A DNA stretch of 64,000 nt, taken from positions 46,222,001 through 46,286,000 of the forward strand of contig OY754466.1 in NCBI GenBank assembly GCA_963575645.1. Reading direction: 5' to 3'. The position numbers and the translations under genes are program-made. The notes below the pieces were generated by a model. The model worked only from the letters and a program-made list of their open reading frames with translations. It did no database searches and was not told where the DNA came from. Positions 36,425 through 64,000 of this stretch are shown here, in pieces. Source of the DNA: Xanthostigma xanthostigma. Lineage: Eukaryota > Arthropoda > Insecta > Raphidioptera > Raphidiidae. Each line of letters starts with the position of its first letter. Position 1 is the first letter of the stretch.

Positions 36425-39400
36425 CTGTAAATAAGTATGAAAAAGATAACTCAAGACCTCTTTAACGGAAAATTTGAGTAAAAAAATATGTAATAAATCA
36501 ACGCTTTACAATTTTCAGTGATTATGAATGTGTTGTAAGTATTCCAATTAATTATTAAAAAGTTTTTACCAACCTGGCTTGCAATAGACAATCTTTTCCC
36601 TTCTTTTCTCAACATCCGCTCTGCTATTGGTGGAACGAACAAGTTCGGGTTCAAATCTCTTTTGTTTTGTGAAGAACTTATTTCAACAATGAAGCTTACA
36701 ACCAGTCCAACAATTAGTGTCGCCAAAAATCCAAGAACGCTGAACCACATGTATGACAGTCGATATAAGTAAAAATACTCACTGAAACACAATGGAAGAT
36801 TGTATATCTATAGTTATGTAATGGTATAAATAATATTACGACGCGGTGTGACGATGTTTAAAACGAGCGCCAGCGAGTTTCAACAGTTACAAAAGCCGTA
36901 ATACCAATACGCACGAGATATATTTGATATTCTTTGCACATATCTCCCAAAAATAGCTGGTTTGGATTTCATTTTCAAAATTTGCGATAGTTCACTTTTA
37001 AACAAACGTCACTTCTAATAGTAGGTCATAATAAAAACAACTGACAAACTGTGTGCGTAATTGGTCACTTTACATGTTTGTATACAATATAAAACAGCTA
37101 TTTTATAGTGCAAAAATAATACATACTTCTCCGTTTCGTCGGATGCATTTGTAGAACTTTGATTGAGCAGGCTCATAAGAGTCGATGTACTTGGAACTGT
37201 TGTTGCATTACAGCCGTCATCGTAGACAGGTAAATAGGGTGGCGGAGGTTTGGGTCCTCCAAAGCCGATCCACAAAGAAAATGCTAGTCCGACAGCGAAA
37301 CCACTCAGGGCACCCTAGAAATAAAGCATGTTAGAACATGTAGCTGGACGAAATACAAATACATTAAAACTTCTTGTAAACATGTCGGGTTATAAGAAGG
37401 CAATAAAACATCATAAATGAGATTTAAGAGTGTCTTTTTAATACCAAGTTGAACAAGAAGACTGATCTATCTTAAACAAATCTTGAATATCAGTCTTCTC
37501 TCCGCGTTTTTTTATTGGGTAGTATTTAAACGAGTGACTGTAAATTACAATTTTGGGTGACAAAAATAATCAATTTGGGTTACTGTATTACTAAGTGAGC
37601 GACTGAGTGCGCGTGACGAGAAAATAATAGTTGGGTGACTAAATTACTAAGTGAGCGACTAAATTACTAAGTTGTTAATAGTTAATTGTTTTAATAGAAC
37701 TGCGTTTTCTAAAAAATATATATTTAATTGACTGTCAATAAAATATACATTTTTTAGAAAACGCAGTTCTATTCAAACAATTAACTATTTAATTCGCATA
37801 CCCCGTTATCGTTCACCCTGGAATTGTTTTTTTTTAAAAACTCCTCATTTGCCCCTTCCCGTTTCACTGCGAGACAATTCGCATACCCATTTATCAAAAA
37901 AAGCGGTGGTTTTCAATCTTCATGAAAATGTGAGTTTTAAGTTGTAGTCTCAAAGTGAAAAAAAAAATAAAAAGTAAAAACAAAAGAAGATATCTGCTTC
38001 AAAATTACCGAAGGCATTCTAGTCGCTCACTTAGTAATTTAGTCACCCAGCTATTATTTTAATATCTCAAGTTATTAAAACAGTATCTCATCATCAGTCA
38101 CCAAATTTGTTTTTTTTATATTCGACCGTTTTATAATTCCCCTTTTTTTATTAAGTCATTTCGTATAATGCAACTTTTCATTACTTTGGCACCATTGAAC
38201 AGACTGCTGTGTTCAGATAATTTAATAAACTTGAACTAGGCGTGGATTTTCTCCCTGAAAGTCGTTCCGGATAATCAAGTGTATTGGACCGTATAGGACG
38301 CAGAACTGAAGCAAGCTTGGTGTTTCTTTAAAACCTCTTCAAATCTGGACACTATAATATTGTTGGTTATCGGCTATCGCCCACATTATAGCTATTTGCA
38401 AGAAGATGACTGATAAGTCCTCTTTCAAATATTGTGACATTCAAAGATAGTGTCTGACTTTAGGTCTTATCAATAATTTTAAATTAATTGCGATTATCCG
38501 GCTTAATAACATACCGTCTGATTTCCAATTCTGAAGAACATCCCCAGAGTGAAAAGCCCCAAAAGCGGTCCTCCGACAACTCCAAAGATCGTCAAGGCCG
38601 ACTGAAGAATGCCGCCTAGGAACTGGGCAAGGAAGGCAACGCCCAAGCAAACCAAACCGTAAATGAACGCAATTATTTTCGTGTGTATGCTGGTGTTTTC
38701 AGGTACATCGCGTTTGTAGATTTTTTTGTATATGGGCTACAACGGAAATTGTAAATTAGGGAAGAACCTATATGTTGATTTGTCGTGTGTAATCTTAGAG
38801 CCAATTTAAAAAAAAAATTCATTCAAGTGTGTAGGTTTTCATGGCAGGCGTTGTTTCAAATATTCTTGGTTTCCGGTCTTGTAGAACGTCGTTCATTGGT
38901 ATTTCTACCTGAAGTTTCGTCTATAGCTACTAGTGCTTCTTTTTTGTCTTCAATGAAAACCGATATGAGATAGTTTTAGACTATCTCATTATGCTTTCTC
39001 CATGACAGCCTAGCCCTAATATGTCTATCTTTAATAGATACAATACGCGCCACGGATCTAAAATGTTCGGAAGTTAGTCACAAACAGCGTCGCAAAGGCA
39101 CATTTTAGAGCCGTTGTGACTCCCACCACCTCCCAGCCACCTGCATGGAACGTGCGCTCGTCGGTGATTGGCCGTGATCGCTCGTTGCCTTTGTCACTTG
39201 TCGCTTTCCTGCTTTAAAGTACAGTCGAGTACGCTATTGTCAAGTTGTTATTGTTAGTCTGGTTTTGTTGAGTTGCGAGCTTGTAGTTTTTCAACAGACT
39301 GTACAAGCGCAAACCCGCATTCGCATCTAACTTCTGAGCCTTTAGATTCGTGGCGCGTATTATACTCTACGGGCGAATCAGGACCGGACTTCTAGTAAGT

Positions 39401-42400: not shown

Positions 42401-45400
42401 AGTCCGGCCCTGTATCATCACCACCGATAAATATGTATCGTGTTTTACTAGAATAATTTATAGTTTGAAAGTAATTTTAGCATTAGAATGTTTTTGCAAA
42501 GTAATCCTTGACAAAAGTGATTAATCAATAAGTTTATGTTGGCACAGATTATTTTTGCGCTAGGTAAATATTTTAAAAGCGCATTTTTTGTTTCAATTTA
42601 AAAATATACACGGAGAAATTATATAAAAAACATGTCTAGTCTTTCAATATACAGATTGTATCAAATTAAAACGGTCTATAGAACATTCTGTGTGTAAGAC
42701 AGAGACGATATTATATAAAGCACTAAAGCAGTAAGTAAGAATGAGATAAATGATCGCTAATAGCTAGTTACTGTGGTTATACAATCTGATAGTATCGTCT
42801 TTGTTTTCTAAAGTAAAAATCACAATTTTATCAAATGTCAGTATTCACTAGGAAAATTATTGATAAAATGGCTATTTATACTGTTCGGGAAAAAATCCAA
42901 ATAATTAAATGGTTTTATGGTGGTAATTCAACCGCCGACATAATAAATTTATTTGTAGCTGCCTTTGAAAACAGACTGTCTCCGTCTAAAATAACAATTC
43001 GCAGTGTCATACGAGAATTTGAATCAAATGGTTGCCTATCTCCGAAAAAAAATTTTTTTTATGGGGATTTGTAAAATTCAAAATTTATGACTTTCAAGAA
43101 AATAGAGCTAATAATTTGAAAGAATTGAAAATACAGATTTCCAATGCATGTCAGTCCGTTGACCATGATATGTCAGCCAATGTGAGGGAAAATATTTATA
43201 ATCGATTAGGATATTGTTTGGCAGAACGTGGAGGTCTTTTTGAACATTTAATAAATTAATTATTAAAAGTATTGTTAAAACTTTTGTACCAGATATAAAT
43301 AATAATACGAAATAATATTACAGTTTATGTAGTTGTTTTAATTGATAAATTGGTAAAAATATTTACAGTGTACGTAATTATTTATTTACGTAACCACAGT
43401 AACTATTAGCGATCATTTATCTCATTCTTACTTACTGCTTTATATATCGTCTCTTAAGGCCCCCATACACCTCGTTCTTTTTTGGCAGTTTTAACCGCCG
43501 GGTAAAACTGTACGGTTAAACACGAACAACGGCCATCCCCATACACCTCGTTCTTTTATGGCAGTTTTAACCGCACGGGTAAAACTGTACGGTTAATTAA
43601 ACACGAACAACGGCCATATCCACACAGAGGCGTTGTTTCGTTCAGTTTTTCTGAAGTCGTGGCATCATTAATACGATCTGCTTTGATGGATCCTACGACA
43701 ACGTTAGCAGTTGCAGCCGCAGTGGCTATAAAATTAAAATTTTCAAAAAGAAAACGTTCAAAATGGACTAAAGAATGGTTACTTAAACGCAGGCAATTTT
43801 CACACGTAAATCTTCTAAATGAATTACGACCAGAACCAGGAGATTGGTTTAATTTTCTGCGAATGGACGAAGAAACGTATTTAGAGCTGCTCACTTTAGT
43901 AACACCATTAATACAAAAGTTATTATTAAAATATAAATCAATACTAAAACTAATTACAATAATTTAATTAATATGACTTATTTGCTGTACGTCGCACCAC
44001 TGAATAAACACGTCGATTCTTATCGGAAAACGCCACACATTACGATTTGAAACGACAACCAGCAAACACGTCGTGTTTAAAATCAAGATTCGGCAGATAT
44101 AAAAACTGCCGTGTTTCATCGACAGTTTTTGCCCATACACTTCGGTTTTGACCGACGTGTTTTATCGTGACGATGAAAACTGCCAAAAAAGAACGAGGTG
44201 TATGGGGGCCTTAAACACAGAATGTTCTATGGACCGTTTTGATTTGATACAATCTGTATACTTTATTTCTGAATAACTTACTTGAAGAATTCAATGCGTC
44301 CTCTGCTATCGGCAATTTTCCATATTTCGTCGAGGCCGCCTGTTTGAATGGCGGCACAGATAATAATGCTGAACACGGCGACAAACATCAGCAAGGACTG
44401 GAACACGTCTGTCATCAAAACTGCTTTCATTCCACCAATAGTGGAATAGAACGTACATACGATTCCTGAAACACACACAGTCCTGATTCTTTATTATATA
44501 AGAAAATAACTCAAATTCTAGACTAAGAAGAAAATTTGAAAACTACTGAGAATGGAAAATTGAAGATTTAAGATGTAAAGCGGCCCATAGACGCTGAAAA
44601 TTATTGCGCAATATTTGGGTTTGTGCAATAGAATTGACCGCTTGTAGACGAGATTGAAAGGTTGCGCGATAGATTGTGTGATTTTCAAAATCTTGAAAAT
44701 ATATTGCACAAACGGGGAAATATTGTGCCGTCTGTTGTCAAGATTGCGCAATATCCCGTCAGTTGATCTCAAGTAGCGGTCGTTTCAACAAGTCGTCTCA
44801 ACTACGTCTCATCATGGGTGACAAGAAAGCCGAAAGACAATTTTTTGTTGAATTTATCGAGATGTATCGTGGTCTTCCGGCTCTGTGGGATGTGAAGTCC
44901 AAAGACTATACTAATCGTGACAACATGATGACTGAAGTTCTGGTGGGGACTGTTTGCACAATGTGGCTGTACCATCTGTGCTCGCAATTGAACAATATAT
45001 TGCACAACCTTCAATATCGCCTCCATATAGTACAATTTTTGCAAAAACCAAAATATTGTACAATAATATTGACCGTCTAGGGGCCGCCGTGAAAATATTG
45101 TGCAACCCACATGGCACAATAATATTGAGCCGTTTAAGATAATGGTTCATGTATCTAGTCTGGAATTCATTATTTTATGACGAGTTGTGACCAAGGGCGT
45201 AGAATTTTTTTTTTCTGGGGGGGAGGGGAAAAAGACAAACAAAAACAATGTTTTTAAGTTTTATTAATATCACGAAGGAAGGTGTCAAGCAAAATATAAA
45301 TTCCCAAACTAATTTAACAAATTCCTTCTCAAAAAGTATTTCTAAATTTTATTTTTAGCCAGGTTTTCGTAATATTTTTTTATTATTATGATCCTGGGGG

Positions 45401-49980: not shown

Positions 49981-52584
49981 GCCCGGTCATATTTTACACT
50001 AAAAATCGCTAATCTCGCAAACTAACATGTAGTTCTGATTTTTTAATATGTTGTTAGGACCACTACCAGTAGCGTATATCCAAGTTTGCAGCTTCGAAAG
50101 ACCTGTGCTAACTTTGCAGCACTCAAAAAACTGCGAAATTTTCGCACTTTTTTTGGTATTCTCAATATAGGTCTTAAACTATGCATTTTTTTATAAAATA
50201 TTTTTTATACGTTTTTAAGTAGACTAAAATTGCTACAATTTGAGACCAGAACCAGCTCTGTAGGTTCAATACTTACCAAGATACAGCTTTCCAAAAATTG
50301 ACCAGTTTTTTCAAAAAAGTGAAATTTTAAGATTTGGTCAATTTTTGTCCCCGATATCGGGGAAAATACTCATTTTAAGGGTAATATCATAGGAACATAT
50401 ATTGTAGCAAATGTAATTAGCTTTAATTTAAGCAGAGAACGACGTCTGTAGGCCATATAGTTTACTCACAAATTTTAAAAATACAAAAAATGAGAAAACT
50501 GCATTTTCGCAAATTTAAATTTAATACCTAGTAATCGTTATGTAAATCCATTCAGTGATTTTAATGTGGTTGAGTAACAAAATTGAGTAACATAGTAGCA
50601 TAAACGAGTAACATAATAAAAAAATAACATAATTGATAACATCATAAAAAATTATGCAGTTTTTGACAAAATACCGTCGTATTTCAGCCATTTTGTAAAA
50701 AATATTTACAAATTATATTCATGAACTTTCCTCGTTTATCGCTCTTTCTATTACCGAAAACAATTTCAAAATTCGGTGCGTGGTTTACTAGAAGAGAGCG
50801 GAGAAAAGGACAGAGACTTTGTTTTTAACTATGCAGTCTTTGACAAAATACCGTCGTATTTCAGCCATTTTGAAAAAATATTTACAAATTGTATACAGAA
50901 ACCTTCCTCGTATATTTTTCTTTCTATTAGCGAAAACCATTTCAAGATCCGGTGCCTGGTTTAGAAGAAATGAGCGGAGAAAAAGACAAAGATAGGCAGA
51001 CTCTCTGTTTATAACTATGTAGTCTTTGCTAAAACACCGTCGCTGTTCTGGCATTTTGTAAAAAATATTTACAAATTATATACAGAAACTTTCCTTGTTT
51101 ATCGCTCTTCCGACTACCGAAAAGCATTTCAAGATTCAGTGCATGGCTTAGAAGAAGTGAGCTGAGAAAAAGACAAAGACAGACAGATGATCTATTTTTA
51201 ACTATGCAGTCTGAGCTAAAACACTGTCGTAGTTCAGGCATTTTGTAAAAACTATTTACAAATTATATACAGAAACCTTCCTTGCTTATCGCTCTTTCTA
51301 TTACCGAAAACCATTTTAAGATCCGGCGCATAGTTTAGAAGAACACCGACAGTGTTTTGTCAAAGACTGCATAGTTAAAAACAGTCTCTGTCTGTCTTTG
51401 CCTTTTTCTCTGCTCACTACTTCTAAACCATGCGCCGGATCTAAAAATGGTTTTTGGTAGTAGAAAGAGCAATAAACGAGGAAAGTTTATGTATATAATT
51501 TATAAATATTTTTTACAAAATACCTGAACTACGACGGCATTTTAGCAAAGACTGCATAGTTAAAATCAGAGTTTCAGACTGTCTTTGTCTTTTTCACCGC
51601 TCACTTCTTCTAAACCACGCACCGGATTTTGAAATGGTTTTCGCTAATAGGAAGATCAATATACGAGGAAGGTTTCTGTACACCATTTGTAAATATTTTT
51701 TTAAAAAGGCTGAAATGCGACGGTATTTTGTCAAAGACTGCATAGTTAAAAACAAAGTCTCTGTCCTTTTCTCCGCTCTCTTCTAGTAAACCACGCACCG
51801 AATTTTGAAATTGTTTTCGGTAATAGAAAGAGCGATAAACGAGGAAGGTTCATGAATATAATTTGTAAATATTTTTTACAAAATGGCTGAAATACGACGG
51901 TATTTTGTCAAAAACTGCATAATTTTTTTATGATGTTATCAATTATGTTATTTTTTTATTATGTTACTCGTTTATGCTACTATGTTACTCAATTTTGTTA
52001 CTCAACCACATTAAAATCACTGAATGGATTTACATAACGATTACTAGGTATTAAATTTAAATTTGCGAAAATGCTGTTTTCTCATTTTTTGTATTTTTAA
52101 AATTTGTGAGTAAACTATATGGCTTACAGACGTCGTTCTCTGCTTAAATTAAAGCTAATTACATTTGCTACAATATATGTTCCTATGATATTACCCTTAA
52201 AATGAGTATTTTCCCCGATATCGGGGTCAAAAATTGACCCAATTTTAAAATTTCACTTTTTTGAAAAAACTGGTCAATTTTTGGAAAGCTGTATCTTGGT
52301 AAGTATTGAAACTACAGAGCTGGTTCTGGTCTCAAATTGTAGCAATTTTAGTCTACTTAAAAACGTATAAAAAATATTTTATAAAAAAATGCATAGTTTA
52401 AGACCTATATTGAGAATACCAAAAAAAGTGCGAAAATTTCGCAGTTTTTTGAGTGCTGCAAAGTTAGCACAGGTCTTTCGAAGCTGCAAACTTGGATATA
52501 CGCTACTGGTAGTGGTCCTAACAACATATTAAAAAATCAGAACTACATGTTAGTTTGCGAGTTTAATGTAAGATATGACTGGCC
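49981..52584. mobile_element. Giant palindromic element, 2.6 kb, with tandem ~185-bp units in both arms
   Basis: The outer arms (about 49981-50650 and 51910-52584) are near-perfect inverses, ending GCCCGGTCATATTTTACA and the inverse, with flanking TA. The inner arms each hold four tandem ~185-bp units marked by ACAAAATACCGTCG. Plus-orientation units lie near 50656, 50836, 51021 and 51207; minus-orientation units near 51348, 51531, 51719 and 51896. The symmetry centre is near 51287 for the outer arms. No coding capacity. TA flanks suggest a Tc1/mariner-type insertion. Confidence 0.85.
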
Positions 52585-61947: not shown

Positions 61948-63807
61948 ATGTCTGGCAAAGATCGTTATCCAATATTTCCTACGAGAGGCAACGAAACACT
62001 CATGCGTTCAAAACTGAAAACTGCACAGAAAGGATTCTCAATCATGAAAACAAAATCTGACGTCCTCCAAATGAAAAGCCGTCAATTGCTGAGACAAATA
62101 TTTTTTACAAAGGTACGAATGATTGATTTACTGAAAGAAGCGTTGATGCAATTGGCTGAAGCTAGATACACGGGCGGTAGTTTTGCGCCTCATGTTTTAA
62201 GTAATGTAACTGATAATGCTCAATTGAAAGTTTCAGCAAGAATAGACAACGTTGCTGGAGTTCAAATACCGGTTTTCGAATTACTTGATAGCGGTTACGA
62301 CATAAACAATTTAACGTGTTTGGGTCGCGGTGGCCAGAAGGTCAACGAAGCAAAACTTATGTTCCAGGCTGTGTTAGAATTTTTAGTTGATTTGGCTTCT
62401 TCTCAGTGCTCTTTTCTCAGAGTTGATAGTGCTTTAAAAATGGCGAGTATGAGATCGAACGCGCTTCAATACGTTGTTATTCCGCGAGTTACAAAAACTC
62501 AGCATTACATTGCGAATGAATTGGAAGAATTAGAACGCGAAGAATTTTTTCGTTTAAAGAAAGTACAAAATAACAAACGAAAGGAGGCTAAGGCAAGAGA
62601 CGCAAAACGTCTTGAAATTATAAAAGCAGAACATGACAGAGAGCTTGCATCTGATTTGGAGAAAAAAGAACATGATCGAGAAGAACATGATCGAGAAAAA
62701 TTTGAAAGAAATGAACGCGAAAGAAAAGAACGTGAAAGAAATGAACGCGAAAGAAATGAATATGAAACAAATGAACGTGGAAGAAAAGAATATGACAGGG
62801 AAAACAATTCCGAAGCAGACCGTGATGGAGAAAGGCGTGACAGAGAACATGCACACGAATTAGAAGACAAAATTTCAGTATCGTCATCTACAACATTTAT
62901 GAGTCGCTCGTATCATGCAAAAGAGCATTCTGATGATGATGAAAGAGAAAAACGTGAAAGAAAACAAGATGACAGAGATGAATACGACAGATCAGAACAT
63001 GACCGAGAAGAAACCGATCGAAAAGAACGTGAAAGTAGAATATACGGAATGGAACAAGATGACGGAAAAGACCGTGCAAGTCGAAAATTTGATATAAAAG
63101 AAGATGACAGAAAAGACCGTGCAAGTCGAAAAATTGATATAAAAGAAGATGACAGAAAAGACTGTGCAAGTCGAAAATATGATATAAAAGAAGACGACAG
63201 AAAAGACTGTGCAAGTCGCAAATATGATACAAAACAAGATGACAGAAAAGAATGTGCAAGTAGAATATACGAAATGGAAGATGACAGAAAAGACTGTGTA
63301 AGTCGAACATATGAAATAAAAGATGAGAGACAAGACTGTGCAAGTCGAAAATATGATATAAAAGAAGAAGACAGAAAAGACTGTGCAAGTCGAAAATATG
63401 ATATAAAAGAAGACGACAGAAAAGACTGTGCAAGTAGAATATACGAAATGGAAGATGACAGAAAAGACTGTGCAAGTCGCAAATATGATACAAAACAAGA
63501 TGACAGAAAAGACTGTGCAAGTAGAATATACGAAATGGAAGAAGATGACAGAAAAGACTGTGTAAGTCGAAAATATGAAATAAAAGATGACAGACAAGAC
63601 TGTGCAAGTCGAAAATATGATATAAAAGGGAATGATGGCAAAGAAAATGATAGAAAAGAACATGTAGATTGCCTGCATTGCAGATTGGAATATAAGGGAT
63701 CGGTTTCGTCGACAGTAGATAAAGGAAAAAAAGCAGACGAGGAAGATGAAGAAGACGAAGAGCCTACTTTAGATGCTTTGAAAAAAGATGATGACATTTT
63801 ATTTTAA
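61948..63807 (+). CDS. V-type proton ATPase subunit D-like protein with long charged repeat insert (intronless)
   Basis: 619 codons, one exon; subunit D proteins are normally ~245-260 residues. Residues 1-210 are subunit D, the central rotor stalk of the V1 sector: MSGKDRYPIFPTRGNETLMR, AQKGFS near 26, DNVAGVQIPVFE (100-111), RGGQ (127-130), NALQYVVIPR (171-180) and ELEELEREEFFRLKKVQ (191-207). The extreme C-terminus (acidic run, then DDDILF) matches the family's acidic Leu-Leu-Phe tail. Between lie a Glu/Arg/Asp-rich stretch (~225-300, repeated HDRE and NERER motifs), a Ser/Thr patch (310-322) and 14 tandem repeats (361-565). It starts at the family-typical MSGKDR. Lack of introns and an A9 tract ~80 bp after the stop suggest a retrocopy. 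It may be an alternative (for example germline-specific) rotor subunit; this is inference. Confidence 0.9.
   Translation: MSGKDRYPIFPTRGNETLMRSKLKTAQKGFSIMKTKSDVLQMKSRQLLRQIFFTKVRMIDLLKEALMQLAEARYTGGSFAPHVLSNVTDNAQLKVSARIDNVAGVQIPVFELLDSGYDINNLTCLGRGGQKVNEAKLMFQAVLEFLVDLASSQCSFLRVDSALKMASMRSNALQYVVIPRVTKTQHYIANELEELEREEFFRLKKVQNNKRKEAKARDAKRLEIIKAEHDRELASDLEKKEHDREEHDREKFERNERERKERERNERERNEYETNERGRKEYDRENNSEADRDGERRDREHAHELEDKISVSSSTTFMSRSYHAKEHSDDDEREKRERKQDDRDEYDRSEHDREETDRKERESRIYGMEQDDGKDRASRKFDIKEDDRKDRASRKIDIKEDDRKDCASRKYDIKEDDRKDCASRKYDTKQDDRKECASRIYEMEDDRKDCVSRTYEIKDERQDCASRKYDIKEEDRKDCASRKYDIKEDDRKDCASRIYEMEDDRKDCASRKYDTKQDDRKDCASRIYEMEEDDRKDCVSRKYEIKDDRQDCASRKYDIKGNDGKENDRKEHVDCLHCRLEYKGSVSSTVDKGKKADEEDEEDEEPTLDALKKDDDILF
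63028..63642 (+). repeat. In-frame 42/45-bp coding minisatellite, 14 units
   Basis: Units of 14 or 15 codons with consensus CASRKYDIKEDDRKD. Two main types alternate: the KYD type (SRKYDIKEDDRKD or SRKYDTKQDDRKD) and the IYEME type (SRIYEMEDDRKD). The first three units have Glu or Arg where later ones have Cys. Cys recur at residues 406, 421, 436, 450, 464, 479, 494, 508, 523, 538 and 552. All length changes are multiples of three. Confidence 0.95.
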
Positions 63808-64000
63808 ATTACCTAATATACTTATTTCAATTTGTCGTAGAAAACATTGTTTAATGTATTTTTTTTCTTGAATCAGTATTAATATAAAAAAAAATAGTAC
63901 CTAATTAAAATTTAGAATATGACAATAATTAATCAGTTACAGTATGACTTCTGAAATCGTGTGGACTCTACTTTATTTTGATGATATTTAAATAACCATC
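63808..64000. other. 3' flank of the V-ATPase D-like gene
   Basis: No canonical AATAAA. ATTAATATAAAAAAAAATAG near 63879-63898 could be a weak polyadenylation signal plus the remains of a retroposed poly(A) tail. Confidence 0.4.

Follow-up and report, generated by a model that had tools for sequence, protein, structure and literature searches.

A retroposed V-ATPase subunit D paralogue with a long, repeat-bearing linker before a family-like C-terminal tail

Near the end of the 64-kb stretch of DNA analysed here (the window), the forward strand carries an intronless open reading frame of 619 codons and a stop (61948..63807), which contains no internal stop or frameshift in the standard code and lies, stop codon left out, at C3:46283948-46285804 of its own genome. 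A first description made from the letters alone (the sequence-only reading) recognised an intact frame, a full V-ATPase subunit D core and a family-like DDILF end, and all three hold. The MSGKDR start and the C-terminal tail are in one frame. The subunit D core, comprising the rotor coiled coil and its foot, occupies residues 1-213 (61948..62586), the foot region itself being residues 77-126 (62176..62325). It is followed by a charged extension (residues 214-279; 62587..62784), a low-complexity spacer (residues 280-363; 62785..63036), an array of tandem repeats of 14 or 15 residues of the type RKDCASRKYDIKEDD (residues 373-563; 63064..63636), a CLHC motif (residues 575-578; 63670..63681), an acidic stretch (residues 597-605; 63736..63762) and, as comparison with homologues indicates, the family tail DDDILF (residues 614-619; 63787..63807 with the stop). 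An ATTAAA at 63904..63909, about 100 bases after the stop on the same strand, is a motif match that may represent a poly(A) signal.

Within the window, tblastn found no further copy of D, no Rfam family was matched at its gathering threshold, and ARAGORN, run with the bacterial code, found no tRNA gene. Three other features were seen. Two tandem arrays of 187-base units (50653-51921) stand back to back in opposite orientation, 3 bases apart and 91% alike over 577 bases; they would form a large foldback and may be a mobile element whose inverted ends are repeated. On the reverse strand, 36454-36807 may be the final exon of a gene for an SLC5 (sodium-coupled) transporter; its matches are weak (SMCT1, E 0.006; multivitamin transporter, E 0.008) and none to Pfam passes the cut-off. 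Finally, 44697-45077 on the forward strand is a fragment similar to the beginning of a MADF DNA-binding domain, with a score under the Pfam cut-off.

The match of the core to the D family is far beyond chance: PF01813 (ATP-synt_D) covers residues 17-208 (E 1.1e-47; 162.9 bits against a cut-off of 25.7) and TIGR00309 residues 9-213 (E 6.5e-44), while identity to the best 120 of 1603 matching proteins of ordinary length is 44-53%. AlphaFold2, supplied with 132 aligned sequences, predicts the D fold of two long helices and a foot hairpin. The first 21 ten-residue blocks of the model include 15 whose pLDDT exceeds 90, and beta strands are predicted at 93-102 and 105-114. Foldseek lays the model onto human subunit D (9cf8_G) with E 1.8e-19, a TM of 0.85 of the target and 46% identity, and the predicted fold is thus compatible with a rotor. 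The strands lie within the foot region, whose name and bounds are our own definition, and to which we take the helix of D that inserts into subunit d to belong.

We searched the genome assembly (623 Mb, 28 contigs) for the family in six frames and exon by exon, and found two D loci, the window gene on contig C3 and another on contig C10; the locus counts from this search are lower bounds. The four exons of the C10 gene are separated by introns of 144, 136 and 630 bases; in its 246-residue product a linker of 36 residues precedes the end DEDLLF. All three intron sites of this gene fall within the shared coding part and are crossed unbroken by the window gene, which by the usual intron criterion is a retrocopy, as had been proposed from the sequence alone in anticipation of an intron-bearing paralogue. 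The copy is dispersed, since the two genes lie on different contigs; the longest word common to both flanks is 9 bases, and the copy is too diverged for traces of a poly(A) tract or target site to have lasted. Glycine at position 14 is shared with all 29 named pancrustacean rows of our comparison and leucine at position 195 with 27 of the 29, while neither occurs in any of the 11 other named rows, a pattern that points to a pancrustacean D gene, most likely that of an insect, as the source. A corresponding search for subunit d found one locus, again as a lower bound, so that nothing points to a full second set of rotor subunits.

Several comparisons show that the core evolved under long constraint. 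Over 212 codons, the window core departs from the C10 gene at 84 first, 64 second and 128 third codon positions, corresponding to pN 0.344 and pS 0.766, so that dS is saturated. When the C10 coding sequence was allowed to change neutrally to the observed identity, none of 1000 simulated cores remained free of stops, and only 3 of 1000 did so at 60% identity; with 120 homologues as starting points and a matched mean identity the result was 0 of 500 runs, and 1 of 500 at the second threshold. The core has kept 78 of 109 family-invariant sites (0.716), above the neutral expectation of 0.597 (sd 0.033) and above the neutral maximum of 0.688. The mildness of its replacements is a weaker measure, because the mean BLOSUM62 score of 0.06 exceeds the simulated mean (-0.32, sd 0.14) but not the simulated maximum (0.17). 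The foot (15 of 17 invariant sites) and the helix end (17 of 20) are the best preserved parts, compared with 27 of 42 and 19 of 30 in the two stretches of shaft; pooled, 32/37 against 46/72 gives a Fisher p of 0.014 for a grouping that was picked after the counts had been seen. Synonymous saturation and the neutral simulations together rule out a young pseudogene with a chance open frame, and the selection that the sequence-only reading had supposed for residues 1-210 is borne out as past constraint. Since no orthologue was found, this signal is historical and speaks for past constraint.

The insert that separates core from tail presents a different picture. It had been placed where the C-terminal part of the rotor leaves the core, and this agrees with the mammalian D chains in the Foldseek list, which are modelled for 199-218 of 247 residues, or for 104 and 109 in two partial maps; the insert thus starts where ordered structure normally ends. 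AlphaFold2 predicts one unbroken helix over residues 127-279, in which the charged extension continues the C-terminal helix of the rotor with block pLDDT falling from 92 (211-220) to 75 (261-270) and then 53 (271-280), and the salt-bridge score for 214-280 stands at z 2.1 relative to shuffles. The family alignment does not reach the extension, whose helix is in effect predicted from one sequence. A second helix is predicted at 327-367, with pLDDT of 78-88 in the blocks of 331-360. In the repeats that follow, block pLDDT is 35-63, their salt-bridge score is at chance and their cysteines do not fall on one helix face, so the array is supported neither as a single alpha helix nor as a one-faced ladder of cysteines.

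The array itself had been described as 14 tandem repeats with 11 cysteines at intervals of 14-15 residues. The array and the cysteines (residues 406-552, in 11 of the 13 units) are confirmed; the count is not, a strict anchor giving 13 units in register, preceded by a partial one, with eight spacings of 15 residues and four of 14. Four further cysteines lie outside the array, two at 575 and 578 in the CLHC motif and two in the core. Units 3 and 8, and likewise 4 and 10, are identical in DNA, which implies that the array was remodelled recently. Preservation of the frame across these repeats had been taken to argue for selection on the protein, an argument that we reject: the antisense strand of residues 364-563 is likewise free of stops in all three frames, and copying a stop-free unit of 42 or 45 bases any number of times leaves the frame open, which makes the open array weak evidence of selection. 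Substitutions within the insert tell the same story. Among the repeat units pN/pS is 0.58, and a duplicated block of four units differs by 6 nonsynonymous changes on 145.7 sites and 2 synonymous changes on 28.3. Contig C7 (6693348-6693674) carries the spacer alone as a broken copy of 334 bases, corresponding to about residues 262-373, which is 91.5% identical to the gene and interrupted by a stop and a change of frame; over 109 codon pairs (3 codons dropped, one stop codon left out) it differs by 12.5 nonsynonymous changes on 265 sites and 2.5 synonymous changes on 59, a pN/pS of about 1.1. Neither of these two small tests, then, reveals constraint on the insert. The C7 fragment is also curious in its own right, as a small inner piece of the gene that has been copied to another contig.

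Beyond the insert the protein ends as D proteins do. The strict form of the tail is present in 111 of 120 ordinary homologues, a close variant in 5, and it is absent from 4; the four conserved columns (D614, D616, L618 and F619) are 96.7-98.3% conserved among them and all are kept in the window protein. Retention at the rate of the core would produce this with a frequency of about 0.27 (0.72^4), so that tail retention appears to be no more than the core's own retention predicts. What is exceptional is the distance from the RLKK of the core to the tail, which is 29-45 residues (median 36) in the 112 measurable of the 120 homologues and 408 in the window protein. A looser pattern finds a tail in 138 of the 158 proteins compared, the window protein among them, and none in 20; 125 of the tail-bearing proteins have linkers of 50 residues or fewer, 12 have linkers of 141-184, and the window protein has the longest, although the set was drawn by similarity to the window protein and by length, contains some gene-model fusions and does not give family-wide frequencies. 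Given these 12 other rows, we do not count a short linker as a defining feature of D.

The likely meaning of the family-like end is changed by a partner recently reported for the D tail, DMXL2 of the mRAVE complex. This tail is described as highly conserved and invisible in all reported structures (PMC12527914). An AlphaFold3 model in the same report, with which crosslinks are consistent, places the DMXL2 helical bundle against both subunit A and the tail of D, and all but one of the DMXL2 substitutions made at the D interface abolished V1 binding, the proteins being human. The authors proposed in 2025 that the D tail may bind DMXL2/mRAVE only while D is not rotating (PMC12527914). From its place and conservation, we infer that the DDDILF end of the window protein is the same element. 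A possible partner is encoded in the genome, where our search found at least one locus of Rav1/DMXL type, with three exon-like matches to PF12234 on contig C8 that span profile positions 316-530 of 640.

Our essential contention, which on balance we consider probable, is that the window gene is an old retroposed D paralogue that encodes a functional isoform of D, in which a fast-evolving linker has been tolerated and a docking tail retained. Under a second reading, the insert is itself the object of selection, its charged rod and cysteine-periodic array anchoring or crosslinking the protein, for instance within a sperm structure, and the D core serving as anchor or adaptor. The regular cysteines, the predicted helicity of the first 66 residues and the fact that repeat units differ in length by whole codons only are all compatible with this. 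We nevertheless regard it as unlikely, because neither the repeat units nor the comparison with the C7 fragment reveals clear constraint, and because the cysteines lie off any single helix face in a region of chance salt-bridge score and low pLDDT.

Two other readings doubt instead that the core still serves in a pump. The gene may have left the pump for another job, as certain D-derived proteins of moths may have done, among them two Cydia proteins of 809 and 889 residues that have a cysteine-rich C-terminal part and no D tail. A core that is at most 53% identical to the best 120 D proteins and has changed 31 of the 109 invariant sites would suit such a departure, but the degree of loss is very different: the Cydia proteins keep 46/109 invariant sites and 6/17 in the foot, and the window protein keeps 78/109, 15/17 and the tail as well, so that we think this reading improbable. 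Finally, the gene might once have been selected and now be released, with the expansion of repeats as a sign of decay. The unconstrained insert, its broken fragment on C7 and the failure to find an orthologue among proteins sharing short exact words in a set of 5.8 billion are what such a history would leave behind. Yet 1.86 kb without a stop or frameshift, a start and a tail that remain in frame, and the evidence of long constraint in the core all oppose it, and we consider decay very unlikely.

Returning to the functional isoform that we favour, we propose that in some V1 complexes, probably those of a restricted tissue, the window protein takes the place of ordinary D. The analogy with Drosophila Vha36-2 makes the male germline the best guess for that tissue. 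In such a rotor the core would still fill the A3B3 ring and dock on F and d. About 60 residues at the start of the insert would carry the rotor helix further as a charged rod, and the remainder would be for the most part a disordered and rapidly remodelled leash, in which the cysteine repeats are most likely a tolerated expansion and not a selected device. The tail, reportedly bound by DMXL/mRAVE on resting V1, would remain available for binding, since it acts as a short motif in its own right and the length of the linker is only loosely constrained. Such an arrangement is in keeping with the distribution of change in the core, in that the parts that would meet partners outside the A3B3 ring, the foot and the tail, have been kept and the shaft has drifted more. 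For the Thermus enzyme, D is described as inserting a short helix into subunit d (PMC7367684). A further and rather doubtful suggestion supposes that mRAVE normally binds the tail only of a D that is at rest. If so, a docking tail held to the rotor by a leash of about 400 residues could allow mRAVE to stay on turning or fully assembled pumps, and pumps with a leashed tail might then be kept assembled, or be re-assembled, without the usual gating, for example in spermatids.

No description of a D retrogene, or of a D protein with a C-terminal extension, was found in the open-licence PMC literature, but the window protein has analogues at several removes. With V1 subunit D (Vma8/ATP6V1D/Vha36; PF01813) it has in common the fold and length of the core, the MSGKDR start, the foot hairpin, the helix end EL.ELEREEF.RLKK and the tail D-x-D-[ILV]-L-F, and differs in its linker and in the divergence of its core. 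As an extra D gene beside a housekeeping one it recalls Vha36-2 of Drosophila, for which Table 1 of PMC3734111 gives a signal of 716 in testis, 0-3 in nine other tissues and 45 in the whole fly. Fly V-ATPase paralogues are reported to be often retroposed and testis-expressed, testis expression being found for 11 of 17 paralogues without the dCLEAR motif (PMC10452791). Loss of DMXL2 from mouse germ cells is reported to lower sperm counts at puberty, with fertility kept (PMC6383954), which fits the idea of a male germline role without testing it. Viewed in this company, the window gene exemplifies a gene for a rotary motor subunit that was retroposed long ago, with a core that was held by selection and a linker that bears no such sign.

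Extended D proteins of moths have a similar outline. In Cydia (P0019 and P0156) a D domain is followed, as in the window protein, by several hundred additional residues containing cysteine; in P0020 of Choristoneura and in P0158 only the end of the D domain precedes such residues, perhaps through truncation of the gene models. Identity to the window core is about 30% for the Cydia proteins, which have CxxC pairs and a GVFETE block where the window protein has its DRKDCASR repeats. All four proteins share this block and the CxxC pairs in the C-terminal part and have no tail, and by these features they apparently form a family that has diverged from a role in the pump. Derived residues shared by the window protein and the moth proteins number 8 where 3.5 (sd 1.8) are expected, which is suggestive only, and a common origin is not supported, the window branch being too long to place in trees. 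Orthologues bearing the repeats, which the sequence-only reading had looked to for support, were not found among proteins of the 5.8-billion set that share short exact words with the query; one of these searches scored the best 7990 candidates, being those that share most words.

Further parallels are two unrelated-looking groups, yeast-like (P0007, P0009, P0010, P0149 and P0150, five rows that are 96-100% alike) and alga-like (P0015-P0017, P0151 and P0153-P0155) by eye, in which a D core is followed by a linker of 141-184 residues and then by the tail, at or next to the end of the protein. Their linkers differ in composition from that of the window protein and contain no cysteine repeats, one group having a Pro/Ala-rich linker and the other a Lys/Glu/Ala-rich helix followed by an acidic part. 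For P0009 a prolonged helix at 121-270 is predicted, followed by an acidic part of low confidence, similar to the predicted extension in the window protein. With a linker 11 times the ordinary length in the window protein and 4 to 5 times in these two groups, retention of the tail suggests that it is an independent motif, and long-linker D proteins may thus be natural variants with which to probe the rotation-gated docking of assembly factors put forward in the 2025 model.
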